A stretch of DNA of 64,000 nt from Mesodorylaimus sp. YZB2_4 (lineage: Eukaryota; Nematoda; Enoplea; Dorylaimida; Dorylaimidae). A program made the position numbers and the translations under genes. The DNA lies in NCBI GenBank assembly GCA_030248295.1, contig JASANH010000126.1, positions 62,001 to 126,000 on the forward strand. Reading direction: 5' to 3'. The notes under the pieces were generated by a model. That model was given only the letters and a program-made list of their open reading frames with translations. It was not told where the DNA came from and searched no databases. Of the stretch, positions 3,212 through 62,808 are shown in pieces. Position 1 is the stretch's first letter; each line of letters starts with the position of its first letter.

Positions 3212-3275
3212 CGGGTTGGGCCGCGCCGGCTCAGTTCTCTACGGGACTTCCAATCATATTAGCTGGCAAGCAGTC
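3212..3275 (+). repeat. Dispersed repeat A, partial copy
   Basis: GGGTTGGGCCGCGCCGGCTC followed by CTACGGGACTTCCAA closely matches the beginning of the fuller copy at 56138-56365. No coding meaning is evident. Confidence 0.5.
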
Positions 3276-3525: not shown

Positions 3526-3693
3526 TACCGTATTTCCTCGAAATCCTCCCCCCTCTGGTTATTCTCCCCTGTTTAGACCCCGATTAAACCTTATTCTCCC
3601 CCCTCTTGAAATCCCCCCTCTGGTAATTTTGCCCCGTCTGGGACCCATTTGAAACAATTTCTCCCGCGGGGAGAATTTCGAGGAAACACGGTA
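3526..3693. mobile_element. Mariner-type MITE
   Basis: A 168-bp unit has inverted ends: TACCGTATTTCCTCGAAAT at the left and the complement of ATTTCGAGGAAACACGGTA at the right. TA at each edge fits the TA target duplication of Tc1/mariner elements. The interior is made of CCCCCTCT and GGTTATTCTCC words, with no coding capacity. A second copy, right part only, lies at 36615-36716. Confidence 0.7.
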
Positions 3694-4019
3694 CCTACTC
3701 ATCAATTTCAGCTTATTTATAATGACTGAAACTCGACCTGATAAAAAACCTGGATGACTAGAGTGTGCTTTGGTCTGGAAAATAGACTCATCTCCTTCGT
3801 GCGTGCAAACTGTTCGACCTCAAACAAAAAATCCCGATCCCGATCGGGCTTGCGCTGATCTCGATCCTGGAAAAAGGTGATCCCGACCTATCCCTAGAGG
3901 TGACCAGCTCTCATGGCAGGTTCCTGTGTCTTCACTGGGAGCACCTTAACACGAGGGCATACTGGGTGAGAAGGGCCTTGGGCTTATCGCTAGCTCAGGG
4001 ACCATCTCGACTTTTGTTT

Positions 4020-4215
4020 GAAGACAGTTTCCCAATTCTCTGCCCCTTGGGTGGGCTCCGCCGTTTGACAGTAACGTGGTGTCGCCCGGAGCCAGGTGAT
4101 CAAAGCCAACGACAAGCTACTAAACTGCTGTCCTCCGTCGGAATAGAACATCGGCCTCCCAGTCAGGGTTGCGGGCCAGAAAGGCGGATCAACGCCTAAA
4201 TCAGCTTAGCCATCG
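4020..4215 (+). repeat. Dispersed repeat A, partial copy
   Basis: The block around 4105-4200 contains the string CCAGTCAGGGTTGC followed by GGCCAG and ATCAACGCC. It aligns with 56240-56365 (ACTGCCGTCG, CCAGTCAGGGTTGC, ACCAACGCC). It is a diverged member of the same repeat. Confidence 0.5.
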
Positions 4216-10616: not shown

Positions 10617-13600
10617 TCAGCAGAAAAACTCGAGTCCAACTGCAGAATAGAGAAAAGATTGAGCTTGCCTTTGCGTATATATATAACGTTTCGCAAGCAA
10701 AACGATGGTATTTAACCTGGTTCTGACATCGATCGGAAGCCCTAAGTCGAAAAAGCCAAATAGGATATGGTCCACCGTCCAGTCGAGGCACAGGCCCTCC
10801 AGCATCTCAAAACGACGCATAATTTCATCCCATATTTTCGAGGACCACCTGCATGTGATAAGCGTGTGTTCGATTGTATCAGACCTAGCCCCACATACGT
10901 AACATTCACCGGATTCCGTTATGCCCCACAGAAATAGCTTCGATGGGACAGCTAACGATAAGATTCTGTGCAAAATCTTGAACTGAAACATTCTCAGTTT
11001 GTTTGGTACGCGGAGCACCGCAGGGAGCGTCCAGTTTTTTCTCCACTGCCAGTTCGCGACCGTTGGTCTTAGTGCGCATCAGCGGGCCTGACCCGCTGGC
11101 ACTGCACATCTTGATCTTAAATAACGGTGCTTCGCGCCATGCACTAGCCGAGGGTTCAGATCGAAAGCTACAACTGGGATTGAGCCAGCTGGCCGGGACG
11201 GTTGAGATCACCTGTATATATTTGAAGTGAGAAAACCGGCCATTGGTGAGAGCATTCAACTCCGTCCACGAGCGAGGTTTGCCTCTACTGTACTATCAAA
11301 CCAATCTACCACCCGAGTGAGTGGGCCCACTTTGAGCCAGTCATAGAATATACTCTTTCCGTCAATAAGGACGAACCGATTGTTGCAGACCAGCTGCGAG
11401 GCCAGGGCCACAGGGGTATCTACATCTTGAACAGGAGAGCTTCGAGTCCACTGGCAAACATCCAAGATTGCGGCATAAAACTCACGAAGTTCAATACCAA
11501 GGGTTGCCAAAGAAAAGTTGCATCGCAGCAGGAAGGGTAAGCCGCTGATCTGACTCACCGCCCTGAATCCCAGTTTAGTCCATAGCGCCACCGGGTTTCG
11601 AAGTAATCGCTTGACCCACGACAATCTCAGGCCGACCAAAATTGTACTTACATCTGGTGCTTTGAGGCCCCCGGCCCAAACCGGCTGTAGCAGCACACCC
11701 TGACGGACCTTTGGAGCCTTTCCATCCCACACAAACTCGCGAATAAGAAACCCTATCCTTCGCAAGGTATCCGCAGGGGATACAAGGTTCATCAGTGAGT
11801 ACACCAGCACAGAGCCCAGCAGCTGATTCCATACTAGCACTCTGCCCACCATTGTCAGCCGTCTTTTACGCCAGTTCTCACGATTCTTTTCTAAGGTAGC
11901 TAGTTTGTCGCTGAAGTTGCTAGCTTGCATGGTCGACTGGTCATGCGCAAGTGTTATGCCCAGCATTCGAACCTTATCCACTGCAGTTATTCCTTCCGGT
12001 ACCGCCGCCCTGGCAGGCTGAGCGCCAAGTGCCATGCATTCTGTCTTTTTCTTGTTCAACTTCAGCCCAGAAATCCGCCCAAAGTCGCTGACAATTTCTA
12101 GCGCGGCATCCGCCGCTTCCCTATCCTTAACGTAAAGGGTGGTGTCGTCCGCATATTGCCCAATTAGGTATTGAGTGCCCCAGATCGGAATACCACGCAC
12201 ATCTGGACAACTTTCTAACGCCGTTACCATAAAGTCGACGGCTATTATAAATAGATAGGGTGATATTAGGCATCCTTGACGGATGTCCCTGCCCAAGGCA
12301 ATACGCCCAGAAACGAATCCATTATTGAGAACCTCGCTGCTAGCGCCCCTGTACAGAGTCTTGACCGCCTTGATAAAGGTCGGCACCGAAGTCCTTATAT
12401 TTTAATGCCAAGTACAAGAAGTCCCAATTGATCGTGTCAAAGGCTTTTTCAAAATCTAACGACAAGAGCAAACCCGATTCATGCGCCGACACACGAAGAG
12501 CCTCATATACATCGATCGCGGTACGAATATTCTCTCCGATATACCTCCATGCAAGGAACGCGGTCTGATTCTCATGAACGAGGGCGCCCACATGCATTTT
12601 CAGCCTGTTAGCTAAAGCCTTAGCCAAGATCTTGTAATCGCAGTTCAGGAGAGTAATAGGCCTCCAGCCGCTCAAGTCATTCGGATCTTTGCCGGGCTTC
12701 GGCAACAGCGAGATCACTCCTTGTTTCTGCGATGGCGACAAGTCACCTGCCTCAAGCGAGGCCTGCATTGATCGCAGCAGCGGCTCCTGTATGACTTCCC
12801 AGAAATGGCGATACCACTCAACAGGGAGTCCATCCCTCCCAGGCACTCTACCTGAGGCCATGCCCTTTAGCGCGTTCAAATATTCCAGTGGTTGCAAGGG
12901 ACAATCGAGAGAGGCCATCGCCTCATCACTTAGCTTCCGAGAGTCGTTTTTACTGACACGTTTCAGCCACTGCTCGATTTCAATTCCGTTAACTTCATCC
13001 TGGGTGTAAATCCGTTCATAAAACTGTTGAGTAACAGCCAGCATCTCTTTTGGTTCCACCACTTCACGACCAGGTGCTACCACGATTTTTGACACAGATT
13101 TACGAACGGCATTCGGTTTTTGCATCCCGAGAAAATATTTTGTGGGTTTTTCACCATATGCAATCCACCGTATCTGGGCGCGCAAAAATGCTCGCCGGGC
13201 ATCATCCTCCAAGATAGCATCAAGGTCACTTCTTGCCGGCTCCCTTAAGACAAGCTCTTCCATTGTGAGAAGGTGCTCCCACGAATCGAGATCGTCCAAC
13301 AGCGACTGAAGCTAAAGCTTCTGTCGTGCACTGCGGGAGTTGACCTGCGCACAATATTGCATCGAAGTATCCCTTACTGTCATTTTCAAGAAGTCCCAAC
13401 GAGCACGATCATCCCACCCTCTGGTTTGTGTTAATGCAAGTTGCAAAGTTTCTTCGATTGCCGCTTTGTACTGCGGCTGATTCACTATTATGACATTCAG
13501 TCTCCAAAGACCAGAGCCCCGTGCGCGGAACTGGGGCCCCATAATTCGAAAAATTACACTCTTGTGGTCTGTGCCAAAGGCTCTTTTTATCACGCTCTTT

Positions 13601-14388
13601 TCGATAAGATTCATCAGGTCAGCGGAGATCAGCCAGTAGTCGAGTCGACACTTGGTTAGTGGGTGCGGTTGCTGCCATGTATATTGTCGGGTGAGCGGAT
13701 TTAGTTCCCTCCAGCAGTCCATCAGATTCCAGTCTGCCTGTATATCCCTGACTGCTCTCACCACAGATCGCTTTGGAATAGAATTCCCACCAGACGTATC
13801 CAATTCAGAATCAAAGGCAACATTCAGATCGCCACCTACGATTACTTGCAAAAGCTGACTATTGAAAACAGTGATAGCGAGCCTAACACGCTGCAGGAAC
13901 TCAACCTGCGCACTCGGCGTGTTCGGACAATTCAGGTTGACTAATATAACATGCAACCCATTTAAATGAACATCTAGCATAAGACAGCGCCCCTCACGAT
14001 CCCGCCAGACTCGATCAACCTTCACGTCAAGGCCCCAGCGAAAGATAACTGCTACGCCGCGAGCATGGTGCCACCCGTCCGAAAACAACATGCTACTTGA
14101 AAAACCTCACTCCTGCTGCCAAACGTGCTCCTGGTCAATTGTGCTGTGAGTTACTTGCAAAAGACTGACATCAAATCTGCTCTCTTTTAGCCAGATAAAA
14201 ACCTCCTTCCGTTTCAATTGCGAGTTAATACCACGAAAGCTAGTTGTTGAGGCCAATAAATTATACGACATAGTTGCTGCATGATACGCTATGCCTATGC
14301 GCGTGAGTTTCGTGTCATTGCAACTGTCCACCACGCCTTGCGAGCCGATGCTACTGTACGTGTTCTCAGCGAACTGCGATAGCCACAC
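10617..14388 (-). pseudogene. LINE ORF2: endonuclease-reverse transcriptase, broken
   Basis: An APE-type endonuclease lies at about 14270-13520, with GGDLN, DYWLISADL and the terminal GTDHKSV motif. The reverse transcriptase follows at about 12900-12100, with GRDGLPVEWY, LLNCDYKILAKALANRL, QGCLISPYLF and the catalytic YADDT near 12150. A zinc-ribbon (CYVCGARSDTIEHTLITC) lies near 10880. The frame is broken by an in-frame TGA at 14107-14109, a TAG at 13312-13314, a frameshift inside 12340-12386 where two frames overlap, a stop at 11256 and another frame change between about 11256 and 11018. In working elements this enzyme nicks target DNA and copies the element RNA in place; this copy cannot make it whole. 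Confidence 0.85.
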
Positions 14389-32971: not shown

Positions 32972-33043
32972 GGCCGCTTGGTCTAGGGGTATGATTCTCG
33001 CTTCGGGTGCGAGAGGTCCCGGGTTCGAATCCCGGAGCGGCCC
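32972..33043 (+). tRNA. tRNA-Pro (anticodon CGG)
   Basis: 72 nt fold fully. The acceptor stem is GGCCGCT/AGCGGCC with discriminator C. Box A is TGGTCTAGGGG and the anticodon stem is CTCGC/GCGAG. The loop TTCGGGT has CGG at 33004-33006. Box B is GGTTCGAATCC. There is no encoded CCA, and a TTTT terminator lies at about 33047. The sequence is nearly identical to animal tRNA-Pro. Confidence 0.96.
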
Positions 33044-33583
33044 CGCGTTTTGCATTTGAGTGTGGTTTTATCTAGCTACTCAATAATCAGATCGCGAGTG
33101 AGTCTGGCTTCTTTCCTCAGCCACCATCGCGTAGTCGGCAAGTCGGTTGCAAAGAATTATATCTAGCGAAGGTGCGATAATTCGTCTCCTTGTTGCATTT
33201 CAGCGAAATTCCCTTAAAATAACAGGAGTTCGTAAAAAATCAAGAAAAACGAGGAACGAAGGCACGGCAAGAACGAAACAGCCTTGGAGATAGCCCAGAA
33301 GATTCTGAATCGACTACTGTGCTTTTCACTTCCCTCATAACTGCTCTTATTGTGAAGAATGCCTTTGAATAATCTGGCCTCAAGATTGCTCATGTACATT
33401 TTCTACAAAGTGAATCTCCATCTTAGAAAACTATATGCACTTCTAATATGTTCTAGAGCTCGCGATTTCTAGAGTAAGCAGCCGAAATTACTCGAATGTG
33501 AGTGTTAGCGTGATGGAAAATGATTTCCTTGAACAGTCGGATGATGAGGATGAGGTTGAAGACGAAGATATCGCACATATTGA
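33044..33583. other. No gene recognised
   Basis: Nothing assignable between the tRNA and the LINE remnant. A short acidic frame at about 33512-33586 is unassigned. Confidence 0.35.
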
Positions 33584-36443
33584 TTGAACGCGATTATGAG
33601 CACGGGTCTGTCTGACCATAAAATCTTCGAGGTAGAGTGCAACTTTTCTTTTGCGAAAATAAGAATGGGTCCTTCTTATTGGAAGCTTGATGTAGATTTA
33701 ATTGGTGCGAAATATTGTCAGGGAAAAACTACGCATTTTACAAGAGGGCTTTATTGGGGCTTCTGATGGGGAGCTCCTTAATCTGTGGGACGAGTGCAAA
33801 CAGGAAGTAGGTGCGCTGTGTTAAGCGAGTAAAAGAACACTGGAAATTGAGAGCAGGAAAAGACGTGCCTTTTTAGAGAAGGAATTAGAGAGGGCCAAAG
33901 TTTTGTGGGGTAGGCATCCACAAAGTGATCTGTTAAAAACAGAATTTCTGGCCGTTAGGAACAGGTTAAAAGAATTAGATAGGGAAGAAGTCAGAAAGAG
34001 GCTAATGAAAACGCACTACAGGGACTGGGCAACTGATCAGTTTACGATGACCACTGCCAAATTAATGCAGAAAAATTCGGCGGAGAGCAGGACAGTGTAT
34101 TCGATACGCGGGGAGGACGGGACTGTGTACGATGAACAGCTAGAGGTAATAGGGGAAATTAGAGGGCAATATGCGACTTTGTTCACTAGCGTAGGGCGCA
34201 TTGATGAAGGGGCTGCGGATCTTTTTTTATGTCGGCGGCCATACGGGGTGGTACAGGATGCAGACAGGGGACCCATGGGAGATAAAATAGGAGAGGAAGA
34301 GGTGCGGGCTGCAATTCGCTCATTTCAGACAAAGAAGACACCAGGTTCTGATGGTCTCCCAATAGAATTTTATGGGTTTTTCTTGGGAGAACTAGGACAA
34401 ATTCTGAGCAAAGTCTATTCGGCTTCTCTGAGGGTAGGGTTTCTTCCCTCAAGTTGTTACTTTGGAATAATTTCGCAGCTGTATAAGGGGGAAGGGGACA
34501 AGGCCCAAAGGTCAAACTGGCGGCCATTGACCATGCTGAATGTGGACTACAAAATTTTGGCAAAAGTCCTAGCCATGAGGTTGAGGAAAGTAATGCCTGA
34601 AATTGTGCATCCTGACTAGACGTGCTCGGTGACTGGAAGGGATATCAGAGACGGGGTCTTGACCCTGTACAATGCGGTGGAGTACATAAATGAGACCGGC
34701 GCGGAAGCCATGCTCCTTTCTGTCGACCACATGACTGCCTTCGATATAGTGGAATGGGAGTATTTGCACAGAGTGTTAGAGTATTTCAGCTCAGGCCAGA
34801 CTTTTGGGGACTGGATCAAAATTATCTATAAGCCAGGAATGGTAAAATCGTCAGTGCAGGTAAATGGCTACGTTTCGGCTGCTTTCTGCCAGACCAGGTG
34901 AATCAGGCAAGGGTGTCCTTTATCCGCCCTCTTGTATGTTCTAGTATCTGAGACAGTCGCCAATTACATAAGAAGGGACACCGGTGTTAAGGGTATTGAC
35001 GTGCTAGGGCATGAGCTGAAAATCAGTAATTATGCTGATGATACAAATTTTTTGGTGGCGGAAACGGACTCAGTGAAGCAGATATTTTGGATGTAAGAAG
35101 AATTCAGGAAAGCATCAGGAGCGACACTAAAAAGAGCAAAAACCAAAATCATATGCCTTTGAGCAAAGGGTATTTCCAAGATAGACGAAGAGCTGGGACA
35201 GTTTATGACGGAGAAAATAAAAGTTTATGGTTTTTCGATCGTGCGAAGCGGGTTGGAAAATAACGACAACTGGGTGGCAGTCCGTGAGCACATAGGGCAG
35301 CTAAGTAGCAAAGTACCCCATAAAGAGATCTCTTATTTTGGTAGGATCCATGTTGCCAACACATACTTTCTCTCGAAAGCATGGTATTTGGCATCAATAA
35401 TTGCACCTGAGAACGATTTTCAGAGATTTGTAGGAAGGAAAATTGATGGATATCTTTGGTATCCTTCAAAAGTGAATATGATAAATAAGTGCATTCTAAA
35501 GAGAAGCAAGGAGCAGGGTGGGATAGCCTACCCTGATGTAGGCCACAAAGTATTAGCTTTCAGGCTGATGCTTTTACTACGCAGGCAGTGCTCAGTTAAT
35601 AATGCCGCGTGGCATGCCAGTTTTGACTATTTCTACAGTAAAGTGCAGGATGCGAAGCCAAACCAGTTAGATGTGATTGCAGTACCTCGACTGTACAAGG
35701 ATATACGCAGGGCCGTGGTGACTGCTAAATTTTCTTTATTGAACCCTAACAATGTCGGCTTGGACGCCCGAGTTTATCCGATCAAACACGTTAAGACAAA
35801 GATTTTGTATAAGCATATGTTAGAGAAGAAAGTCATGAAAGCGACGACAGCGATGCAACAGTACTGGCAGGAAAAGTTGGGAGTGGAGCAGATAGATTTT
35901 GGTGCGTATTGAAGATTGACTCGGACCAAAAATGTGGATGGGTATTCACGAAATTTGCACTTCTCATTGTTGTATAAAGCACTGTATACGAGAAGCAGAG
36001 TCTCTAATTTTGCAGATTTAGACGCTAACTGTAAATACTGCAGTGTTAGGCATGGATTGGATAAACACGAAGATGTCTATCACGTTTTTGTAAAATGCCC
36101 AAGAATTGAGTACTTTTGGGAGCAAGTGGAGGGACTGTTGAAAAAGTTAGACAATACTGTCTCTCTTAGTGAGAAGAATAGGATTTTTGGAGAACTGGGT
36201 CTTCAAAATAAACATATCGCCTCAGTTGCAAACATGGTTTTGCAATCTACCCAGAGGTGTATATGGGCAGCAAGGGCGGCCTATGAGGAAGACAATGAGC
36301 TAATTGACATGTGGGATTCGCTGGTGACCCGACTAAAAGGACTAACAAAACGAGCTAGGTGTATTTTGACACCGCAGGGTTTTCATGAGCAGTTTGTAAA
36401 GTTGTCTTTTATCGAGGTTTTGTATGCGATTCCAGTAGGATAA
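33584..36443 (+). pseudogene. LINE ORF2 remnant with in-frame stops
   Basis: After one frame change near 33740 the whole product from about 33750 to 36443 lies in one frame. It is interrupted by a TAA near 33822, TAG at 34617, TGA at 34899, TAA near 35094, TGA near 35160 and TGA at 35910. Recognisable reverse-transcriptase parts are TPGSDGLPIEFYGF, WRPLTMLNVDYKILAKVLA, IRQGCPLSALLYVL and NYADDTNFLV. The catalytic Asp pair is kept. All three stop codons occur, so codon reassignment is not an explanation. Confidence 0.85.
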
Positions 36444-38990: not shown

Positions 38991-39062
38991 GGCCGCTTGG
39001 TCTAGGGGTATGATTCTCGCTTTGGGTGCGAGAGGCCCCGGGTTCGAATCCCGGAGCGGCCC
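38991..39062 (+). tRNA. tRNA-Pro (anticodon TGG)
   Basis: 72 nt, differing from the tRNA at 32972 in very few positions. The loop TTTGGGT gives TGG at 39023-39025, and one T-arm junction base differs. The acceptor stem, boxes A and B and discriminator C are intact. TTTT follows at about 39066. Confidence 0.96.
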
Positions 39063-51249: not shown

Positions 51250-51678
51250 TTATGTCGGCCTGTATCGGTCCGGTGGCTTTCGGTTTTCACGTTTTGGGTA
51301 CCGACTTTGACCCTTCTGAACCTCGTGCTGACGGGCGGTCGCGTCGGGCTGATCGGTTTGGACCTTGCTGGTGGGTGGCTTTGTCATTCCTTCTGACGCT
51401 GTTGCCTGGGGAACTTGCTGTTGCAGGGTTGCTTCCTGTCCCTGTTGTATTGGAAGCGTGTCCTGCCCGTCTGTAGTGTCTGTCGACGTTGCTTGAGGGG
51501 AATGTTCGTGCAAGAACTGCGGTGAAGCCACTGGTTCCTGATTAGTAGCCTCGTCGTCTTCCTCCTGGCCACTGTCATCACCTGGCCGATGACGTAAGCG
51601 CAAGTGATCCGCGTGTCGACGATGATCAACGCCCTCAATTTCGACTGTGTACGACAATGGTCCGTTCTGCTTCTTCAC
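51250..51678 (-). pseudogene. C-terminal end of gypsy element 1 integrase, out of frame
   Basis: Beginning GPLSYTVEIEG, this 142-codon frame is the usual GPY/F-like end of integrase followed by a Gln/Thr/Pro-rich tail and a basic finish (YPKRENRKPPDRYRP). It overlaps the end of the main frame at 51675-51678 and is shifted relative to it, so one small indel near 51700 separates it from the polyprotein. There is no chromodomain here. Confidence 0.8.
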
Positions 51679-54600
51679 GAGACCCGGCTTCCAACCACTG
51701 CCGTCGTTGAAACCCAGACTAAATCTCCCATGTAGAACGATCTGGCGCGTGTATGACGATCGTGATAGAATTTTTGCTTCGTGATGGATGTGTCCATGTT
51801 GCCTCGGGGATCGGGCTTCAAACGATCAAAATATGTGGCAGGCTTGCGATTAAGAAACAATTCGGCTGGGGTGCGGCCCGTTGACGAATGTGCTTGGATG
51901 CGATAAGACCAAAGAAAGGCTTGAAGGCGATGTTCTTTGTCTGGAAACCTGTCCGCCATCATACGAAAGTGACGTTTGAACGTTTGAATCACCCTTTCGA
52001 CCATGCCGTTGGTGCGACTGTGATAAGGTGTACTGCGGATATGGATAATCGCGTTGGATTTGCAAAACTGTCGGAATTCTTCAGACGTAAATTGACTGCC
52101 GTTATCACTCACGATCTGTTTGCAGAATCCGTATCGGGCGAAAAGTTGCCGAAAAACTTTGATGACTCTGTCCGTCGTCGCATTGGCTAAAGGAAAGATC
52201 TCGACCCATCGCGAGTAGGCGTCGATAACGAAAAACCAATGATAGCCTTCATATGGCCCTGTGAAATCAATATGCACGCGTTCCCAAGGTCCATCTGGAA
52301 TGTTCCATGGGTTGATTGGTGTCTCTGGTTCTTTCGTTCGATTTTCCTGGCAGGGTGTGCATGTCTTCACCATGTGCTCGATTTCCTGATCTATTCTTGG
52401 CCACCAGACAGCATGCTTGGCCAAACTGCGCATGGCTACAACCCCTGGATGCCCTTCGTGCAGTTGCGTAAGAAATGACTTGCGTAGTGACGAAGGTACA
52501 ATAATGCGATTCTGCCAAAGCAAGACGCTGTCCTCGAAAGATATTTCCATGCGTCTATCGAAGTATGGCATGACTTCGCTTTGCAAAGTCTTCTTTTCTG
52601 GCCATCCGCGTTCCAGAAATGCGATCACTCTTCCCAAAACAGGATCGCGGAGTGTGCGTTTGCGCAGCATCGTGCGAGTAACGGGTAATGCCTCAAGTTG
52701 CAGTTCACGTAGTTGACAAATTGCTCTCGCATCGCCATCTTCCATTTCCGTTGCCTCCGTAGATGGCAATGGTAATCGAGAGAGTGCGTCAGCAGCAGAA
52801 TTCTCCTTGCCTGGACCATATTCGATTTTGTAATCGTATGCGCTGAGTGTGATGGCCCAGCGTGTCAAGCGGGATGCTGCCAATTTTGGAATTTCTTTGT
52901 GCTCGCCAAAAATTCGTTCGAGCGGTTTATGATCCGTCCTTAAAGCGAACTTCCTCCCGTAGAGATACTGGTGGAACTGGCTGACTCCAAACATGATTCC
53001 CAATGCTTCGCGATCGATTGGTGAATACCGTTGCTCAGCTGGTTTCAATGAACGAGATACCGCTGCAATTGGCCTCTCTGTACCATCTGGATATTTGTGC
53101 ATCAAGATGGCCCCGACCCCTCGCTCGGATGCGTCTGTTGCGAGAATGACTGGCAACGAAGAATCGAAATGAACTAAGGTGTCCTTGGATGAAATTGCTT
53201 TCTTCAATTCGTTAAAGATTGCGTCATCTGCTTTCGTCCACTTCCATGCGACTCCCTTCTTCGTAAGGCGATGAAGAGGGACGCAGGTGCTTTGCAAATT
53301 CGGAATAAACCGTGAATAAAAGTTCATCGATCCAAGAAAAGAGCGTAACTCTGACGCGTTGGTGGGTGTTGGCAGGTTGCGTAAAGCCTCAATACCTTCG
53401 GAGACTGGGTGAATGCCGTCCTTGTCCATGCGGAAACCCAGATACCTGACTTCCTTTTGCATTAGGCGTAGCTTCGAAGTCTGTGTTCGCAAACCGACTT
53501 GGCGCAATTTGCTAAAAATAAGACGAAGCCGGTGAAGGTGCTCTTCTCTGGTCCGGCCCCCAGTTGCGATGTCGTCCATCAGACAGGAAACTCCGTCGAT
53601 GCCCCTGAGAAGTTTGTCCATGAAGTGCTGAAAAATTGCTGGCGCTGAACTAATCCCGAATGGCATGCGTTTGTAACGGTAGTATCCGCGATGCGTTGCA
53701 ATTACCAAATACTTCTGTGACTTGTCATCCAATTCCAACTGTAGGAATGCGTCCTTTAGGTCGATCACGGAAAATTCCGTGAACCCTTGGAAATTGGAGA
53801 CCACCTCCTCGAACCGTGGCAGGGGATGAGGATCCACAATCATGTACGGATTGATTGAAACTTTGAAATCGCCACAAAGTCGTACTTGGCCATTTGGCTT
53901 TGGAACGTAAACGACAGGGGATGCCCATTCAACTGCTGTGACCGCGGGATCCACCGGCTCGATGATACCGTCACGTACCAGCCGATCGATTTCCGCGTCT
54001 GCTGCTGGGCGAATTGCGAAAGGTACAGGCCGTGGTTTGAAAACGACAGGGCGTGCGTCGTCCCGAAGATGGATTGCTGCCTTGTGTCCTCGCACCACTC
54101 CTGGTTTGTCGCTGAGCAAATCTGCATAATCCTTGATCAGCTGTTGTACCTCAGGGTCCTGTGCGATTTGGATTTGCTGTCCTGTAGGTGCCGCCGATGT
54201 CTGATTAACGTTCGCCAGATGTATTGACTGGAGCTTGATAAACTCGCTCTGTGGTTCCAAATTGAACGCTTGGATCCAGTCCTTCCCGAAAAGTGGGATT
54301 CCGTGGTATTGCTTTGTTACTGCTAACGGAAGCTGCAAGGTGCGATTGCCTAGAGAAACAGGAACTGTAGTTTCTCCCAACATTTCAATGGTAAACCTTG
54401 GGTATGCGCCCAAGTTTGCCGTTGGACGAAGCTCAGGTGAGCCTAGCCGTGTCCAGGTGCCTTTGCTAATGACTGTCCGAACTGCGGCTGTATCGAATTC
54501 CAATGACAATTTCTTGTTGCCGTTGATGATAACTTCGATCATGTACCGCTTTTCATCTCCGTGCTCAGTTGCATTCATGTCTGAAACGAAGAATTCAGTT

Positions 54601-55508
54601 CGAGCTGACGAAACCGCATTCGTCCTGGAAGCTGGGCGGCCCGCTTTTGGCTTGACGGCGCGTCCGCTGGTGATGCAGACGACTTCCCAATGACCCGTCT
54701 GATGACACGCATTGCATTTGCTGTCTTTTGCGGGACACTTGCTGTCGTTCCCATGACGGTCTCGTCCACACCGCATGCACTGTTTGTTCGGATCCACCAC
54801 TCTCGGTGCGCCGGTTGATGCAGATGCTGGCTTTTTCGTGTCGTGTTTGGCTGGAAGTACCTTGGACGGTTTCTTTGCGCAAACTTTACTGACAGTGCTC
54901 GCGTTTGACATCACTCCTGGCGATTCAAGGACCTTGCGCTGTAATTGTGCTGCCTCGATTGTCAGTGCTGTTCTTCCAATGTCCGCCCACGTCGCTGTAA
55001 CCTGAGAATGCTGACGAAACAGTTCCTCCTGCATACTCGGATTGCGAAGACCTAGAAGAAATTGGTCGCGTAGGCGCTCCTCCAATGTGTTACCAAACTG
55101 ACAGCCGGTCGCTATTGAGCGTAACTGATTTGTGAATTGGACGATGGATTGTTCTGGTTGACGAAAACACTGTCCAAACTTCACGCGCTCCAATAAGTAA
55201 TTGGTGGCTGGCTTGTAATAGCCGTCCAGGAACTCTTTGATCCTGGCGTATGTCTCATCTGCTATAGGCGTTGGTGCGAAATGATCCAGAACGAGGCGAT
55301 AAAGCTCTGGTCCAACCCATTTGAGCAATAGGTTTCGACGTGCCGCCTGGACGGTGGCTTCAGCTCCGTCGAGTTGCTGCAATGTCAACTCCATTTCGAA
55401 GCGTTGAATGTAATACTTCCATTCCTCCGCTTTAGAGTCGAACTGAGAAAATTTGAAACGACTAATCCGTTGCTGGATATCGTCTCCGGCTTGCGCTGCG
55501 TGCGCCAT
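51675..55508 (-). CDS. Gag-Pol polyprotein of gypsy element 1
   Basis: One frame of 1277 codons from ATG 55508; it is open 15 codons further up from a TTG. Order: Gag capsid; two zinc knuckles (CMRCGRDRHGNDSKC near 54775, CNACHQTGHWEVVC near 54700); aspartic protease (FDTAAVRTVIS near 54495); reverse transcriptase with LMDD as the catalytic box near 53575; RNase H (ATDASERGVGAIL near 53140); integrase zinc site (HEGHPG...CTPCQ, 52470-52340) and catalytic core D, D, E at about 52262, 52110 and 52005 (IDFTG, VSDNGS, NGMVER). Gag and Pol are fused with no stop or shift between them. The frame ends early inside the integrase C-terminus through the indel noted in the entry at 51250, so this copy may make a truncated integrase. 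Family role: reverse transcription and insertion of the element. Confidence 0.93.
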   Translation of the reverse strand: MAHAAQAGDDIQQRISRFKFSQFDSKAEEWKYYIQRFEMELTLQQLDGAEATVQAARRNLLLKWVGPELYRLVLDHFAPTPIADETYARIKEFLDGYYKPATNYLLERVKFGQCFRQPEQSIVQFTNQLRSIATGCQFGNTLEERLRDQFLLGLRNPSMQEELFRQHSQVTATWADIGRTALTIEAAQLQRKVLESPGVMSNASTVSKVCAKKPSKVLPAKHDTKKPASASTGAPRVVDPNKQCMRCGRDRHGNDSKCPAKDSKCNACHQTGHWEVVCITSGRAVKPKAGRPASRTNAVSSARTEFFVSDMNATEHGDEKRYMIEVIINGNKKLSLEFDTAAVRTVISKGTWTRLGSPELRPTANLGAYPRFTIEMLGETTVPVSLGNRTLQLPLAVTKQYHGIPLFGKDWIQAFNLEPQSEFIKLQSIHLANVNQTSAAPTGQQIQIAQDPEVQQLIKDYADLLSDKPGVVRGHKAAIHLRDDARPVVFKPRPVPFAIRPAADAEIDRLVRDGIIEPVDPAVTAVEWASPVVYVPKPNGQVRLCGDFKVSINPYMIVDPHPLPRFEEVVSNFQGFTEFSVIDLKDAFLQLELDDKSQKYLVIATHRGYYRYKRMPFGISSAPAIFQHFMDKLLRGIDGVSCLMDDIATGGRTREEHLHRLRLIFSKLRQVGLRTQTSKLRLMQKEVRYLGFRMDKDGIHPVSEGIEALRNLPTPTNASELRSFLGSMNFYSRFIPNLQSTCVPLHRLTKKGVAWKWTKADDAIFNELKKAISSKDTLVHFDSSLPVILATDASERGVGAILMHKYPDGTERPIAAVSRSLKPAEQRYSPIDREALGIMFGVSQFHQYLYGRKFALRTDHKPLERIFGEHKEIPKLAASRLTRWAITLSAYDYKIEYGPGKENSAADALSRLPLPSTEATEMEDGDARAICQLRELQLEALPVTRTMLRKRTLRDPVLGRVIAFLERGWPEKKTLQSEVMPYFDRRMEISFEDSVLLWQNRIIVPSSLRKSFLTQLHEGHPGVVAMRSLAKHAVWWPRIDQEIEHMVKTCTPCQENRTKEPETPINPWNIPDGPWERVHIDFTGPYEGYHWFFVIDAYSRWVEIFPLANATTDRVIKVFRQLFARYGFCKQIVSDNGSQFTSEEFRQFCKSNAIIHIRSTPYHSRTNGMVERVIQTFKRHFRMMADRFPDKEHRLQAFLWSYRIQAHSSTGRTPAELFLNRKPATYFDRLKPDPRGNMDTSITKQKFYHDRHTRARSFYMGDLVWVSTTAVVGSRVS

Positions 55509-55578
55509 TGCGAAATATGGTCGAATTCGAAATTTCAATGGAGTGCGGTCCAATGAAAAGAATAACCGACGTCGCCAA

Positions 55579-55788
55579 TGTTATGTTAAAGACCCGAGCA
55601 GAGAAAACTACTTTACTAGTCCGTAACAAGCAGAGCAAGTGAGCCGTAGGTGCGCTGCGCTAGTGCTAGAAGCTGGTAACATTCTCGTAGAAGTAACCTT
55701 TGCGGTAGCCTAATCATAAGCGGTGCGTAAGCGTGGCGTGAGACTATGACTTGGCAAGTATGCAAACTACCAATGCGTTTACATCACA
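55579..55788 (-). repeat. 5' LTR of gypsy element 1
   Basis: 210 bp, the transcription-driving LTR for the minus-strand element. Confidence 0.95.
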
Positions 55789-56365: not shown

Positions 56366-57088
56366 CGGCTCTCCATACTGTACGATTACATTCCATCTAC
56401 CCGTTTCTGGAATTTCTTTCCATAATTCTTTGGACTTCTATTTTCTGCTGCCTTGACAGATATAAGTGCCACTATAGGGACTGTTTATCATTACTGGCAA
56501 ATACTTTCCATTGGTTTCCGTAAAGTTCGCTCTCCTTCCACCCTTTTCATCTAGCACCCATCACAATCCGCCCCCGTGAAATCCTTGGCTCGCTCCAGGA
56601 CAGACTAGGGCTGACCAGAGGATGGCTCGCCACAGGAACCACCCCACCCAGTCCACAGGCGCTTCTGAACGAGCTTCACTATCCCACACCACGAAGGCTG
56701 TGCAGACTCACAATTCGGGGAGCAGCCGCACGCGTCAGCCGTCGAAGGAGTTCTGACGGACCTAGGACGGAAATGCTCACTGAGCAGTTCAGACCAGTTA
56801 TTAGACATGGATTATGCATGTACTATGCTCTCTGGCCTATTCGTGCTCCGGTTCAGAGAACCGGTCCACCTCTCCTAAGTCAGGGCCAGCACGAGACCAG
56901 ACCCAGAGCGAGGTCGAGGTCGAGTGACTGGTCTGGTCGTAGGCATCGGGAGAGAAGTAGTTTAGAGTCCCTGGTCTGGACTTGATCTGTAAGCACTCCA
57001 GGCTCAGGTCGGTCAGAACCCCTCCGACAATTGACGCGTGCGGCTGCTCCCCGGATTGTGAGTCTACAAGGTCTTCGTGGTGTGGGAA

Positions 57089-57287
57089 TGTCACGGTTAA
57101 GTTTGTATCTCCCGCGTGGATATCAGGTAGTGTAGTGTGCGTTATTGTAAAGCTTGCTCGCCAGGGCTACGGCCAGAGCAGGCGAACTGGGTAGAGTACG
57201 GCGGAGCGTAATATAATTCTCGTCTAGTGCGGTTGGTCTGGAGATTACTCTTCTCCACACGCGGTCACGTCGGACAGCAACGTGACA
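57089..57287 (+). repeat. 5' LTR of gypsy element 2
   Basis: 199 bp, TGTCACGG...CGTGACA, so the extreme ends are themselves inverted (TGTCACG/CGTGACA). It differs from the 3' LTR by three substitutions and one 4-base gap. A candidate primer site TGGCGAGC begins three bases after it. Confidence 0.95.
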
Positions 57288-57439
57288 TTTCTGGCGAGCT
57301 TGGCAGGAGGCGAGGAGTCGGTGGAGAAGAGTGGCGGATTGGTATATATACCTGTAAGTCGGGTTGATTCGGTCTTGGGTCGTAGTACGGGAGCTTGTCC
57401 TTGGATTGGGACGGCGATATTTGGGCAGCCGCTTCGTTC

Positions 57440-57660
57440 CGCTTGTGCTTCCTGGATTGGTTGCACTGGAAACGGACTTTGAGAGTTTCGTGCTGTTTGT
57501 GCTTCCTGGATTGGTTGCACTGGAGACGCACGTTGGGAATTTCGTTTGAGTGCCTCGTGTGCTCTGGAGACGAATTCCACGTTCGTTTGCGTTACCTGGA
57601 TTGGTTCGCTGGAGACGAAGCTTACTCTCACTTGTGGAAGCGTTGAGTACCTGGATCGGT
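57440..57660 (+). repeat. Degenerate ~65-bp tandem repeat in the leader of gypsy element 2
   Basis: CTTCCTGGATTGGTTGCACT followed by GGA(A/G)ACG occurs near 57446 and 57509, with diverged copies near 57560 and 57592. It lies in the 5' leader ahead of Gag. Confidence 0.7.
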
Positions 57661-57734
57661 TCTCTGAAGCGAATTCGATCAGTAGCTCGGAAAGTTGCCG
57701 CGTGGACTCACGCGCAGAGACTTTGGGGGTGAGC

Positions 57735-60305
57735 ATGGCTGCGAAGTTTAGTATCACGTATGCGGAATTGCGTGAAAAGTTACCTCCTTGGGTGAAGAAA
57801 GAGGTGTTGAAGGCCTATTGCGATGCCAACAACGTGAAGGTCTCAGCCACATCAACGAAACAGGATATGGTAGAGGAACTTGGCAAGGCGATTTCTGCCG
57901 GATGGGACCAAGGTGCTGCGCATGGAGGTAGCAGCGGGGAAAGTACTTGGGAAATGTCCATGATCGATTTCGGTCCGTACATGAATGAAAGTACGAGTAA
58001 AAAACCGCCGAAAGGAGACGGAGAGTATACGGGAGCGGACGATGCGTCGGGCAAGGCGACGCCTATGACGAATCCGCAACGGCCACGCCTGGACCAGGGC
58101 GATGGTGGCACGGGTATCGCTCAGATGATGATGCAGCAACAGGCCATGTTCTTCGAGTTCCTGCAGAAACAACAGCAGAGGCAGGATGAGGACAGGCGCC
58201 GCGAAGCTGAGGAGCGGAAACGCCAGGAAGAAAGGCAACTAGAAGACAGGCAGAGAGAGGCTGAGGAACGGAAACGGCAGGAAGAGAGGCAATTGGAGCA
58301 GCATAAGATAATGCTGGAACAGATGCAGGCTTTGACTGTCTTGATTCGGTCACCGCCACAGGCTGGTAGTACGCAGCCCAGTCAAACGTCTGTAGTGTCC
58401 CCGTCTGTGAATCTGCCAGGTCTAAAGATCGCAGTGTTTTCGGGCGACGTTGAAAAGATAGACCCATTCGAGTGGTTGGAGACTTTCCGTACATATAGTA
58501 CGTTAGGACGGTGGTCCGTCGTTCAAGTCATGGAGGGTATCAAAGTGTATCTGACGGGCGAGGCTTTAGCCAAGTGGAACGAGTTGACTGATACGGATAA
58601 GAATTCTTGGGAACGTGCAACGGCTGTATGGCTGGAAAAGTTGCTCGGAGAGAAAAGGTCGATTTTCAGAGTGCAGTTAGCTGCCCTGAAGCAGGAAAAT
58701 CGTTCAGTCGCCTGGCATACACAAGAATTCTTGCGACTGGCAAAGTTGGCCTCATTTACGGCCACGAACCAGACGGTTCGGGATAATGACTGGCCTATAT
58801 GCGAAATGTATGTCGCAGGATTGCGCAACACGATTCAGAAAGAGGTTCGCAGAGATAACCCGGATAGGTTATCAGTGGCGAGGGCGATCGCGGAAAGAGC
58901 CGAGTCATGCTCTACTCTGTGTGGCGAGATAGTGGTGAAGCAACGAAATGATAGCCAGCTCTCGCATGTCGGAGAAGCCAGGAATGGTAGTACAAACAAC
59001 AGGGCCTGCTACCGGTGCGGACAGCTGGGTCACATAGCACGAGAATGTGTGGATCGCAGAAACGATCACGCGGGTGGTCAGCACAGGTCTCGTAGTAATT
59101 ATCCGCAGCGAGATGGCCGCAGGGAGTTCCAAAGCAGTAGAGGACGACATAGTCCAGGTCGCAGAGACCAGTACGGTCGAGGACGACGTTTTTCGTCTCG
59201 GGAAAATAGTAGCAACGGTTACAGTCGTGGTAACTATCAGAATGATCGCGGACGGTCGGTTGACCGGAGGCGGAGAGTCAATTCTGTTTCGGATGACGGC
59301 TCGCGATCCGAAGAATATGGTGAGCAGAGTGACGAGTGCCAGGGGTATCGGCAGGATGAGGGCCAAAATACGGTTGGCGGAAGGTGTAATACAGTGCTGG
59401 GCATGCACAAGGATGCGCCGCATAGAGGATCGGCACCAGTTTCGCAGGAGGCGAATGCAGTAAAACGGATAATTGGTCAGTTGAGTTACGTGTTATGCCA
59501 GGTTAATGGGCAGGACGTACCCATGATGCTGGATAGTGGCGCTACCGTAACCCTGATAAGCAAGGCAGTGGCGGAGAAAATCATACCGCGTAAAGATTGG
59601 AGGCCTAGTTCGGCTAGCCCGAAAGGTTTAGGTGGAGACGGCACGCTAGAAATCGAGGCAGAGGTTGGAGTTGACCTCAAGGTTGGTTCGATAGTCGAAC
59701 GACACGTAGTGCTGATATCGAGCACGATGGGTGGAATACCCGGCATCTTGGGCACAGATTTTACAGGCCCATGCCATAGCGAGCGGTACAGGTACTGTGC
59801 AGATTTGTCGCACGCTCAGGAAAAGCAGGGGCTCGTTGGAGTAGTGTTGAGCTCTGAGTGCTCTGTGTATGTGTGCGCCGACGTTGTGATTCCGGCGAGG
59901 AGCGAAATAATAATTGAGGCTGAGCTGCGAGCGCTGCCCAATGAGGTATCTGTTGACCAAGGGTGGTTGGAACCCAGTACGAACTTAGGAGCGGAAAAGA
60001 GGCTATTTGTGGCTCGTTCGTTGGTTAAACTGAAGGAAGACGGCCTCGTGCCAGTGATGGTAGCTAATACAGCTACGGACGATAAGGTATTGCATAAAAA
60101 TACGCGAATCGGCCAGTTCACGGTTATCGATAAGGGTGACCAAGTGGTGGCAGCTTGCGGTTCTGCCGAGGGTAAACCGGTGTCCATTATGGACCCAATC
60201 GCGAAGATCGATTGGAGGGAGTCAGAGTTGACTGAGGATCAACGGAAACGCGTTGTTAGCGTATTACGTCAATACGAAGATGCTTTTGCTAAGCATGAAG
60301 GTTAA
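57735..60305 (+). CDS. Gag and protease of gypsy element 2
   Basis: 856 codons from ATG 57735; the frame is open 63 codons upstream through leader repeats, but this is the first ATG in the Gag region. The N-terminus (residues 1-55) has a SAP-like helix pair. Residues of about 140-200 form a long Glu/Arg/Gln coiled coil (EERKRQEERQLEDRQREAE). The capsid follows. One zinc knuckle, CYRCGQLGHIAREC, lies at 59007-59048, followed by an Arg/Ser-rich tract. The protease has MLDSGATVTLI near 59525. The frame stops at FAKHEG, just where reverse transcriptase normally begins. The product could form particles and be processed only if protease works in this context. Confidence 0.88.
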   Translation: MAAKFSITYAELREKLPPWVKKEVLKAYCDANNVKVSATSTKQDMVEELGKAISAGWDQGAAHGGSSGESTWEMSMIDFGPYMNESTSKKPPKGDGEYTGADDASGKATPMTNPQRPRLDQGDGGTGIAQMMMQQQAMFFEFLQKQQQRQDEDRRREAEERKRQEERQLEDRQREAEERKRQEERQLEQHKIMLEQMQALTVLIRSPPQAGSTQPSQTSVVSPSVNLPGLKIAVFSGDVEKIDPFEWLETFRTYSTLGRWSVVQVMEGIKVYLTGEALAKWNELTDTDKNSWERATAVWLEKLLGEKRSIFRVQLAALKQENRSVAWHTQEFLRLAKLASFTATNQTVRDNDWPICEMYVAGLRNTIQKEVRRDNPDRLSVARAIAERAESCSTLCGEIVVKQRNDSQLSHVGEARNGSTNNRACYRCGQLGHIARECVDRRNDHAGGQHRSRSNYPQRDGRREFQSSRGRHSPGRRDQYGRGRRFSSRENSSNGYSRGNYQNDRGRSVDRRRRVNSVSDDGSRSEEYGEQSDECQGYRQDEGQNTVGGRCNTVLGMHKDAPHRGSAPVSQEANAVKRIIGQLSYVLCQVNGQDVPMMLDSGATVTLISKAVAEKIIPRKDWRPSSASPKGLGGDGTLEIEAEVGVDLKVGSIVERHVVLISSTMGGIPGILGTDFTGPCHSERYRYCADLSHAQEKQGLVGVVLSSECSVYVCADVVIPARSEIIIEAELRALPNEVSVDQGWLEPSTNLGAEKRLFVARSLVKLKEDGLVPVMVANTATDDKVLHKNTRIGQFTVIDKGDQVVAACGSAEGKPVSIMDPIAKIDWRESELTEDQRKRVVSVLRQYEDAFAKHEG

Positions 60306-60470
60306 AGGAGATGTTGGTGTCCAAACCGATCTTGCGGTTCCCTGATTTCAAAAGGCAGTTCATACTGCAGACAGATGCGTCGAATGTCGGCATCGGGGCA
60401 GTGCTGTATCAACAGCATGGGAACGACAAATGGGTCGTAGCATACGCGTCAAGGACGCGTCATACCTGTA
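60306..60470 (+). pseudogene. Junction region: RT lost, RNase H interrupted
   Basis: A third frame from about 60314 encodes the start of RNase H (SKPILRFPDFKRQFILQTDA, then YASR). It then jumps to the frame at 60430, whose recognisable part starts at YLYGAKFLLRTDHQP. The three pieces are in three different frames. The block between the first Asp motif and YLYG, normally about 30 residues with the catalytic Glu, is also absent. The 8-base word ACGCGTCA occurs twice at this second break (60444-60451 and 60455-60462). Confidence 0.75.
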
Positions 60471-62337
60471 TGGGGCAAAGTTCCTGTTGAGGACAGACCA
60501 TCAACCGCTGAAGTGGCTGATGGCACACAAGGAACCTACAGGTCGGATTGCACGGTGGGTATACCAGTTGTCGGAATACACGTTTGATGTAGAGCATGTG
60601 CCGGGGAAGACCAATGTTGTGGCAGATGCACTTTCTCGAAGCCCGATGTGCATGGTTTGCCCAGTGGCTGTAGAGACAGTCGGACAAAAAGCAGTGGAGT
60701 TGTCGGACCAGACACTTAAGGAGGCACAGAGGGCAGATCAGTTCTGTCGGGCGCTAATTGACTATTTGGAACAAAGAATGTTGCCCAAAGATCCGCGGGA
60801 TGCGAGGCGGCTAAAAAAGCTTGCGCAGAGCTTTAGTCTTTCGGAAATGGGCGTATTGCTACATTTTCCATTGGGGAAAGAACGGAGAAAAGAGGATTGG
60901 ATACAGATGGTAGTTCCATTATCCTTGCAGCGCTTGGTGTTTGACGCACTGCATGGTGATGCCATGGCAGGTCATTTGGGTTTCACGGAGACCTTTGTCA
61001 AGCTGAGGCAACGGTTCTTTTGGCCAGGCATGTACAAGGACACTTTTCGCTGGTGTCAAAGTTGTTTGCCATGTGCGAAGAATAAATCGTATGGTCAGAC
61101 GGGTCGGGCACCCTTGAAACCACTGTGTGTGGAGAATCCGTTCGAGTTGGTGGCGATCGATGCCACGGGTCCATTCCCTACAGATAGGGATGGCAGTAAA
61201 TACGTCGTAATCGTGAGCGACTACTTGACAAAGTACATCGAGGCGTTCACAGTGCCAGATATCAAGGCGGCGACGGTAGCCCAGATCTTGGTAGACAAGA
61301 TCATATGTCGGTGGGGAGCGCCACGACGATTGCTGTCGGACCGAGGGGCTAATTTTACCTCGGAGTTGGTGCAGGGCGTGTGCGAGGCATTGCGCATCAA
61401 ACGATCCCTGACGGTAGCGTACAGACCTCAGACTGATGGTCAGGTGGAGAGAGTGAATCGCGTGTTTCGCGATATGCTGAGGATGTACGTAGACCAAGAT
61501 CACCAGGACAATTGGAGTGGTTTTGTTCCGTTTGCCCGATTCGCGTACAATACGTCAGTCCATGAAGCGACGGGTAAGACTCCGTTCTTTCTGATGCATG
61601 GTTTTGATGCACGGTTGGTGATCGATACGGGTATCTCGAGTTCAGCTAACAAAGTTGGCAGCGCGATCGAATATCGCGAGAACGTGGTGCAGCAGCTCGA
61701 GCGAGCTCGGAGGTTAGCTTATGAGAGCATAGAACGAGCGCAAGAACAGCGTAAGGAACGTTGGGATAAGAATACGAAACTGGAGAAGGAGTTTCAGGCT
61801 GGTGATATGGTGATGTATAAGCGAATGCATACACCGGCAGGCTTATCATCGAAGCTGTTGGGCTCCTGGACTGGACCCTATCGTGTCACGCAAGTGATAT
61901 CGGCTCGCAACTTGATTATCCGTCCGCAAGAAGGATTAGTTGGCGAAGAGAAGCGTGTTCACGTAGAACAGGTGAAGCGGTATGTGCCAGAGGTGGATAG
62001 GCCACGCAAACCAAGTCTGCTGAAGGTCGGTGATGCAGTGTGGGCCAAAATGAAGTACCACCCATATTTGCCAGCACGAATAGTGGATGAAACGGAATTC
62101 CCGGATAAGAGGCCTATAAAACCAAATTGGGTTCGTGTACACTTCTTCGGCGAGAAGAAGTACGGACTAGTCGAGCGCGATAACATCTTCGACTACAGGC
62201 AGTATAAGGAGGTGTTAGCCTCCAAGGCGGCAGGTTTGCCTCGCGCGATGCGAGACGCGGAGAGGTACTTGGAGGAGGAGAAGGACGCGCGCAGTCGTGT
62301 GGCTTTGGTAAAGGAGAGACGGAAGTGGGTGCAATAG
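60430..62337 (+). CDS. RNase H remnant, integrase, GPY/F module and PWWP-like domain of gypsy element 2
   Basis: 635 codons. Residues 10-75 are the end of RNase H (RTDHQPLKWLMAH, GKTNVVADALSR). The integrase zinc site is at about 60955-61080 (H...H...CLPCAK). The core D, D, E residues lie near 61160, 61340 and 61446 (IDATGPF, LSDRGANF, DGQVERV). A GPY/F module follows (GSWTGPYRVTQV near 61865). Residues of about 530-600 (62017-62226) then read KVGDAVWAKMKYHPYLPARI and, after a gap, VHFFGEKKYGLVERDNIFDY. That is the order and spacing of a PWWP domain, with PYLP in the place of PWWP. The tail is charged and helical. The ATG at 60430 is just the first in the frame; the natural protein would be part of Pol. 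Confidence 0.88.
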   Translation: MGRSIRVKDASYLYGAKFLLRTDHQPLKWLMAHKEPTGRIARWVYQLSEYTFDVEHVPGKTNVVADALSRSPMCMVCPVAVETVGQKAVELSDQTLKEAQRADQFCRALIDYLEQRMLPKDPRDARRLKKLAQSFSLSEMGVLLHFPLGKERRKEDWIQMVVPLSLQRLVFDALHGDAMAGHLGFTETFVKLRQRFFWPGMYKDTFRWCQSCLPCAKNKSYGQTGRAPLKPLCVENPFELVAIDATGPFPTDRDGSKYVVIVSDYLTKYIEAFTVPDIKAATVAQILVDKIICRWGAPRRLLSDRGANFTSELVQGVCEALRIKRSLTVAYRPQTDGQVERVNRVFRDMLRMYVDQDHQDNWSGFVPFARFAYNTSVHEATGKTPFFLMHGFDARLVIDTGISSSANKVGSAIEYRENVVQQLERARRLAYESIERAQEQRKERWDKNTKLEKEFQAGDMVMYKRMHTPAGLSSKLLGSWTGPYRVTQVISARNLIIRPQEGLVGEEKRVHVEQVKRYVPEVDRPRKPSLLKVGDAVWAKMKYHPYLPARIVDETEFPDKRPIKPNWVRVHFFGEKKYGLVERDNIFDYRQYKEVLASKAAGLPRAMRDAERYLEEEKDARSRVALVKERRKWVQ

Positions 62338-62493
62338 GAATCGGAGACGTCGGTCAAACTCAATCAACAGCGTACAATACAGTCGCACGATGTCAATGGA
62401 GATGGGCGACTTACGACGCCAATGATCATGATTTTTGCGTTTCGATATTTTGTGTTTCGTGTAGGAGTTCGTGTAAACTGAGGGGGAGGTGAA

Positions 62494-62696
62494 TGTCACG
62501 GTTAAGTTTGTATCTCCCGCGTGGATATCAGGTAGTGTAGTGTGCGTTATTGTAAAGCTTGCTCGCCAGGGCTACGGCCAGAGCAGGCGAACTGGGTAGA
62601 GTACGGAGGACCGTAATATACATAATTCTCGTATAGTGCGGTTGGTCTGGAGATTACTCTTCTCCACACGCGGTCACGTCGGACAGCAACGTGACA
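62494..62696 (+). repeat. 3' LTR of gypsy element 2
   Basis: 203 bp, with four extra bases (ACAT-type insertion near 62618) relative to the 5' LTR. Confidence 0.95.
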
Positions 62697-62808
62697 GGAT
62701 AGTAAAACAGAACGAGGAGTGTCCGTGGACTGCGTGGGTTGGTTCCTGTGTCTTGAGCCATCCACTGGTCAGCCCTAGTCCTATCCCAGGGCGAGCCAAG
62801 AATTTCAC

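Follow-up and report, generated by a model that had tools for sequence, protein, structure and literature searches.

An integrase with a C-terminal PWWP domain

The DNA analysed here, called the window, is a stretch of 64,000 nucleotides from the 145-Mb genome of the nematode Mesodorylaimus sp. YZB2_4 (C79:62001-126000; C labels denote contigs and L labels places fetched from them). It holds a Ty3/gypsy retroelement in which an open reading frame (ORF) at 60430-62337 of the forward strand, uninterrupted for 635 codons, encodes the end of an RNase H, an integrase and, beyond the integrase, a PWWP domain. In this 635-residue product (P0001) the integrase zinc-binding domain occupies residues 162-220 (60913-61089; PF17921, Integrase_H2C2, E 3.7e-19) and the catalytic core residues 236-333 (61135-61428; PF00665, rve, E 5.1e-12). 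The zinc residues H175, H182, C212 and C215 and the catalytic triad D244, D304 and E340 are all in place, D244 and D304 lying inside the core match and E340 just beyond it. In the integrase C-terminal region a GPY/F module (61873-61959, right edge approximate) was recognized from the sequence, with GPY at residue 482. The closest solved relative of the integrase part is the Ty3 polyprotein 7q5b (E 3.7e-28), in a match that starts at the zinc domain and takes in most of the GPY/F module.

The PWWP domain follows at residues 534-613 (62029-62268). The PF00855 model matched the complete product with 47.7 bits (cut-off 25.6, E 2.2e-12, profile positions 1-91 of 93), and the last 126 residues on their own gave 51.3 bits (E 1.7e-13). 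The solved PWWP chains that matched the tail were led by HRP3 (E 7.4e-8), followed by DNMT3B, HDGF, HRP2 and LEDGF. The domain is slightly basic, with 18 Lys or Arg and 16 Asp or Glu residues in 90 (isoelectric point 8.8). Judged by its sequence, this part of the protein is a true PWWP domain. An earlier note on this DNA had proposed a PWWP-like domain fused to a Ty3/gypsy integrase after the GPY/F module and had suggested a search with the PF00855 model; the search was significant, H2C2, rve and PWWP were found by Pfam in a single ORF in the proposed order, and every string the note quoted (GDAVWAKMK, PYLPAR, HFFGEKKYGLV and NIFDY) is present in the translation. The span it gave, 62017-62226, falls short at its end, which the Pfam match overruns by about 40 nucleotides.

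The host element is bounded by long terminal repeats (LTRs) found as a direct repeat and aligned to each other, the 5' LTR (57089-57287, 199 bp, TGTCACG...CGTGACA) and the 3' LTR (62494-62696, 203 bp), which are identical at 196 of 199 aligned positions apart from one 4-nucleotide indel. This near identity indicates a fairly recent insertion. A search of the genome with the LTR gave 40 matches, including the two of this element (150 candidates scored). The polypurine tract GAGGGGGAGGTGAA (62480-62493) adjoins the 3' LTR, and an ORF at 57546-60305 encodes a gag zinc knuckle (PF00098) and an aspartyl protease (PF13650/PF13975). The order LTR, gag zinc knuckle, protease, RNase H, integrase, polypurine tract, LTR is the Ty3/gypsy layout. 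Almost the entire reverse transcriptase is gone: the two ORFs, both open, meet across a junction at 60306-60429, neither matched RVT_1 at E values up to 1, and the end of the gag-protease ORF reads like the start of a reverse transcriptase region. The element measures 5608 bp, as compared with 6510, 6544 and 6572 bp between the LTR pairs of three siblings on C419, C177 and C19, which exceed it by about 0.9-1.0 kb; the copy on C419 lies within an open frame of 1873 residues. Hence, the window copy is an internally deleted member of a family with longer copies in the genome.

The element is flanked by a probable 4-bp target-site duplication, GGAA (57085-57088) on the left and GGAT (62697-62700) on the right. 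Since all three siblings inspected have perfect 4-bp duplications (CACT, CTTG and GTGC), GGAT probably represents the duplicated target with a single base altered. The left flank is formed by one arm of a 105-nucleotide inverted repeat (56682-56786 and 56983-57087) that stops right at the 5' LTR; the other arm, reversed, runs on as GGGATAGTGAAGC, which resembles the right flank GGATAGTAAAAC. This is consistent with an element that inserted into an older, hairpin-like repeat and now borders it. The leader between the 5' LTR and gag contains a tandem 54-nucleotide repeat (57433-57540, 85% identical), and 57807-57875 near the gag start resembles a SAP/Ish1-type fold (weak Pfam match to Ish1, E 0.13).

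Spread, selection and origin of the PWWP integrases

A search of the genome with the window protein gave 101 matches with identities down to about 30%. Besides the window, 11 places on 11 contigs span residues 11 to at least 604 at 87-98% identity, eight of them free of stops and three with an internal stop. The PWWP model found at least 146 places, all above the Pfam cut-off, a lower bound in that 150 of 173 candidates were scored. The integrase context was read for 118 of the 146, over roughly 1.5 kb of upstream sequence if the contig was long enough, by use of an integrase profile built from 12 relatives. An integrase lay in the same ORF at 69 of the 118 places, and at another 38 it lay upstream in another frame or past a stop. 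The converse survey scored 150 of 526 candidate rve places, which makes the share having a PWWP only a rough figure: a PWWP lay 599-2430 nucleotides downstream on the same strand at 41 of the 150, upstream on the same strand at none, and on the opposite strand within 3 kb at two. The 146 places and the fixed downstream orientation argue that the pairing of PWWP with integrase is not due to chance.

Clustering of the PWWP domains gives ten groups at 60% identity (F0-F9), and six or sixteen when the threshold is set at 50% or 75%, respectively. For each of F0-F7, eight clusters in all, the representative combines H2C2, rve and PWWP above the Pfam cut-offs within a single ORF; F8 consists of two decayed members only. 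In F9 (L113, C108:7650-9720) the PWWP stands several hundred residues past the apparent end of the integrase core, across a very long linker; in L113 Pfam gives no domain other than PWWP, and the integrase end is a reading of the sequence. The open frame reaches at least 1000 residues at 35 of the 146 PWWP places and at least 1500 at 18. An F7 member, L118 (C79:56920-58960), is found some 3.3 kb before the start of the window, in a frame of 2265 residues. Other Ty3/gypsy families in this genome are without a PWWP. L119 (C57), from a group 32% identical to P0001, had no PWWP at E values up to 1 in the 252 residues read, its tail giving only a weak integrase C-terminal match, and the window's second Ty3/gypsy element (51675-55580, reverse strand) likewise gave no PWWP match. 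That element is a frame of 1301 residues with reverse transcriptase, RNase H and integrase, and a protease below its cut-off. By domain content, integrases of a diversified Ty3/gypsy lineage regularly end in a PWWP.

Selection on the domain was assessed from nonsynonymous (dN) and synonymous (dS) divergence and their ratio, omega. Between the window copy and C982, C25 and C779, PWWP dN was 0.052-0.063 and dS 0.73-0.82, giving omega of about 0.07-0.08, with integrase omega of 0.08-0.12 for the same pairs; Fisher tests on the substitution counts gave p 1.1e-12 (C982) and 4.0e-12 (C25). The PWWP is thus constrained as strongly as the integrase between diverged subtypes. As C982, C25 and C779 keep the motif PYLP, its Leu has been held rather than drifted into. 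Within families, ratios of nonsynonymous to synonymous differences (pN/pS) were pooled over pairs having integrase dS of 0.05-1.2, a same-ORF integrase and a stop-free PWWP; the pairs are not independent. The values for PWWP and integrase, respectively, were 0.19 and 0.16 in F0 (47 pairs, 16 sequences), 0.19 and 0.23 in F1 (18 pairs, 18 sequences), 0.15 and 0.10 in F2 (53 pairs, 12 sequences), 0.00 and 0.05 in F3 (9 pairs, 5 sequences), 0.07 and 0.19 in F4 (14 pairs, 6 sequences) and 0.53 and 0.69 in F6, where 2 pairs of 3 sequences are too few; F5 and F7 had one eligible member each. The presence of the domain in other family members and purifying selection on it, both proposed as checks in the earlier note, are therefore borne out by the copies, the integrase contexts and the omega values given above.

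For the origin of the fusion, 50 integrase domains of the elements and 101 others were reduced, with a 93% identity threshold, to 12 and 99, respectively (111 rows). The maximum-likelihood tree placed all 12 non-redundant PWWP integrases in one group (support 100/91) together with one intruder, P0002, a protein from another source. Constraining the 12 together without P0002 was not rejected (approximately unbiased test, p-AU 0.406), and with P0002 left unscored one change on the tree suffices. Hence, the PWWP was probably acquired once, by the ancestor of the lineage, from a cellular PWWP gene. Scores to solved cellular PWWPs are not informative on the donor: the matches of the F4 domain include DNMT3B (E 3.3e-7) and NSD2 (2.7e-5), and those of F1 include MSH6 (3.8e-8) and LEDGF (6.2e-8). 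Distances between PWWPs follow those between integrases (Mantel r 0.85, p 0.0001, n 12), a correlation driven by near pairs, the far pairs being saturated. Modules seem to have recombined in two copies. In L006 (C31) the integrase is near (dS 0.06) and the PWWP far (dS 0.78), and in L008 (C334) the integrase is far (dS 0.44) and the PWWP near (dS 0.12); each copy thus appears to join an integrase and a PWWP from different F0 subtypes. Between F2, F3 and F4 the integrases are 74-82% identical, as against 32-54% for the PWWPs (first 82 residues) and 23-33% for the linkers. The PWWP therefore diverges fast between these families though it is constrained within them. Within F1 the figures are 75-84% (integrase), 66-72% (PWWP) and 44-53% (linkers).

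Contigs C58, C85, C334, C396, C583 and C962 start or end within 1-2 bases of the outer end of an LTR match, which is probably due to assembly breaks at repeats rather than telomere targeting. The members of a further rve group are placed some 0.7 kb from contig starts, a few of them in frames of more than 2900 residues. The window also holds two tRNA-Pro genes on the forward strand (32972-33044, anticodon CGG, and 38991-39062, anticodon TGG), two long interspersed element-like reverse transcriptase remnants in several frames (11256-14106, reverse strand, RVT_1 above the cut-off, and 33825-36443, forward strand, RVT_1 below it) and, by Pfam, an Srsx-type seven-transmembrane receptor, a zinc transporter and SSF fragments.

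Methyl-lysine cage and DNA-contact residues

The PWWP domain of HRP3 has a cage for methylated histone H3 lysine 36 (H3K36me) formed by Met19, Tyr22, Trp25 and Phe48, with Lys18 as a key DNA contact (PMC6547440, here as for the other papers on PWWP mutants from excerpts of the text), and the LEDGF cage is M15, Y18, W21 and F44 (PMC3663649). The window PWWP is identical to HRP3 at 28 of 71 aligned residues and keeps the KMK DNA-contact stretch, including the Lys18 equivalent. Aligned on HRP3, its cage stretch (62050-62070) has Met541 in place of Met19, and His544 and Leu547 at the positions of Tyr22 and Trp25; Phe572 (62143-62145) matches Phe48. The cage therefore reads Met, His, Leu, Phe and is incomplete, and His52 and Glu53 of HRP3, which flank the cage, are both Lys here. 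The earlier note had seen the kept Met and Phe and the exchange of Trp for Leu, and had overlooked the His and the two Lys residues. Its doubt about full reader function went halfway, since two lost cage residues make H3K36me reading by the window copy less likely.

Among the 118 PWWP places the Lys18 equivalent is retained in 115. The Trp25 position has Trp in 89, Leu in 23, Ala in 3, Arg in 1 and a stop in 2; Phe48 is present in 102, position 22 is Phe or Tyr in 36, and position 19 is Met in 47 and Val in 52. All three aromatic positions are aromatic in 23 places (15 of 17 in F2 and 8 of 9 in F4), and those 23 have Val for Met. The P-x-W-P-type motif is PYLP in the window copy, PYWP in sister subfamilies, PWWP in most F1-F4 members and QPAP in F7 (L118), where the cage Trp is Ala in all three fetched members. 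All 23 Leu residues fall within F0 (33 members); as Trp is kept in 8 of those 33, and F5 and F8 also have PYWP, the Leu is probably derived.

Mutants of cellular PWWP proteins indicate what such changes do. The W21A substitution of LEDGF/PSIP1 abolished binding, possibly with disturbed folding according to the authors, and M15A and Y18A lost methyl specificity with milder effects on affinity (PMC3663649). Ioc4 W22A lost its preference for H3K36me3 with folding intact (PMC8934638), and a JASPer Y23A/W26A mutant showed no H3K36me3 binding (PMC6877644). In HRP3, the loss of chromatin binding was far greater in mutants of the DNA contacts than in Y22A, a cage mutant (PMC6547440). Given the residues present, H3K36me reading is plausible in F2 and F4, and binding of DNA or nucleosomes appears likelier in the subfamily of the window copy.

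Possible roles of the integrase PWWP

Our preferred reading is that the PWWP is a lineage-wide part of the integrase, probably acquired once, that most likely acts as a built-in chromatin tether, and we put its probability at about two in three. The domain would have been captured once from a cellular gene and then inherited with the integrase, with some swapping between subtypes. In all families the integrase tail would dock on nucleosomes via the basic DNA-contact face of the PWWP, families with an aromatic cage would additionally dock on methylated H3 lysine 36, and docking would steer insertion in a manner comparable to LEDGF with lentiviral integrase. In the window's subfamily docking without methyl-lysine selectivity would be likelier, because the cage has lost both Tyr and Trp. 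A bolder version, which we hold tentatively, is that this Ty3/gypsy lineage internalized the LEDGF principle and that its cages diversified from aromatic (F2 and F4) to stripped (the window's F0 subfamily and F7), so that families became tethered to different chromatin states.

Several observations weigh against one part or another of the preferred reading. With an aromatic triad in only 23 of the 118 places, methyl-lysine reading is unlikely as a shared function. At 11 of the 118 places no integrase was found in the stretch examined, and 28 of the 146 lay outside that sample; two of the 11 are accounted for, one having only 25 nucleotides upstream and the other being F9. When 18 F0 copies were compared one by one (C65 was saturated), C531 and C185 gave integrase omegas of 1.06 and 1.01 (PWWP 0.20 and 0.25), C962 gave 0.72 for the integrase and 0.66 for the PWWP, C58 an integrase omega of 0.82 (four changes) and C20 an omega of 0.54 for the PWWP; such values seem to reflect copies in decay or low counts. 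The intruder P0002 stops before the GPY/F region and hence before any PWWP position, and the sister row, P0003, has a tail with no PWWP in its Pfam list. The other 98 rows of the tree were scored PWWP-less from precomputed Pfam lists (the window's second element from Pfam directly), a scoring that is not firm because many of them end early. The PWWP-bearing relatives are known from one genome only, and the PWWP tail of the window family, the only tail so searched, gave no match at E 0.001 in a set of 5.8 billion proteins, nor did a longer frame at E 10.

It could be that the PWWP serves only nonspecific DNA binding or the assembly or stability of the intasome and steers nothing, which we regard as unlikely yet worth serious attention. 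The slightly basic domain would suit such a role, as would the near-constant Lys18 equivalent beside a variable position 22 and, in the window copy, the exchange of two out of four cage residues and of the two next to the cage. However, the cage Trp persists in 89 of 118 places, 23 members of F2 and F4 have the full aromatic triad, and the fast divergence of the PWWP relative to the integrase among F2-F4 might suit a changing target, although the gap in F1 is small. That the PWWP of the window copy itself reads H3K36me, His and Leu standing in for Tyr and Trp, is quite improbable: it keeps Met and Phe, is under purifying selection and has the Leu seen in 23 of 33 F0 members, but the LEDGF and JASPer mutants described above lost binding or methyl specificity through the equivalent residues, and the cage flank is Lys/Lys.

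The identical position in the protein raises the question of a chromovirus whose chromodomain, or ordinary SH3-like integrase C-terminal domain, was misread as a PWWP. Chromodomains and PWWPs are both Royal-family folds, which would favor such confusion. Nevertheless, no chromodomain model matched P0001 at E values up to 1, as against 47.7 bits for PWWP, and the SH3-like region is separate and upstream (in L118, SH3_Tf2-1 at residues 344-401, with 29.4 bits just short of the cut-off of 30, and PWWP at 501-576). We therefore rejected this explanation as having next to no probability. We think it equally far-fetched that the window copy captured a host exon in a single event or that the fusion is an assembly artefact. 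The copy is indeed internally deleted and not a typical full element, but both ideas are contradicted by the 11 near-full copies on 11 contigs, by the at least 146 PWWP places and by dN/dS values that imply long selection.

A chromodomain at the integrase C-terminus is described as the hallmark of chromoviruses (PMC3605345, in excerpt). The present elements resemble these in having a Ty3/gypsy pol with a chromatin-reader-type module at that place, and differ in that the module is a PWWP following GPY/F. LEDGF/p75 also links a PWWP, one of the closest solved relatives, to an integrase; however, it is a separate host protein that docks via its integrase-binding domain, and artificial fusions of chromatin-binding domains to that domain are known (excerpts of PMC8149907), whereas here the PWWP is inside the integrase. 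The window copy further differs from HDGF-related PWWPs in its cage and flanking residues, and NSD2, DNMT3B and MSH6, among the best solved matches of the F4 or F1 domains, are cellular proteins and not mobile elements. Among 118 relatives listed from the protein set (8000 candidates scored), none had PF00855 in its precomputed Pfam list. No relative was found in viral contigs searched with P0001, A1, L048 and L010 or in a collection of genome contigs searched with P0001, and in a plasmid collection Ty3/gypsy-like matches in three records did not extend to the PWWP part. A 5.3-kb record labelled as a Wolbachia plasmid (NZ_CP087956.1) carries at 2689-4208 a Ty3/gypsy-like pol stretch 33% identical to P0001, possibly host contamination. 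We found no earlier description of a PWWP in a retroelement integrase in excerpts of open-licence PMC papers, a scope that leaves Repbase, preprints and subscription papers outside; as excerpted, four papers combining PWWP with retroelement or gypsy (PMC3978060, PMC11933901, PMC11292947 and PMC13117020) have no bearing on PWWP integrases.

Ty3/gypsy elements with chromodomains are the usual example of an integrase that brings its own chromatin reader, and LEDGF that of a PWWP protein guiding an integrase from outside; the two meet here in one protein. If the tether reading is true, an element whose integrase carries a PWWP would no longer need a host factor of the LEDGF type. Several families with differing cage residues, beside PWWP-free relatives, form a natural comparison set for reader domain versus insertion site.

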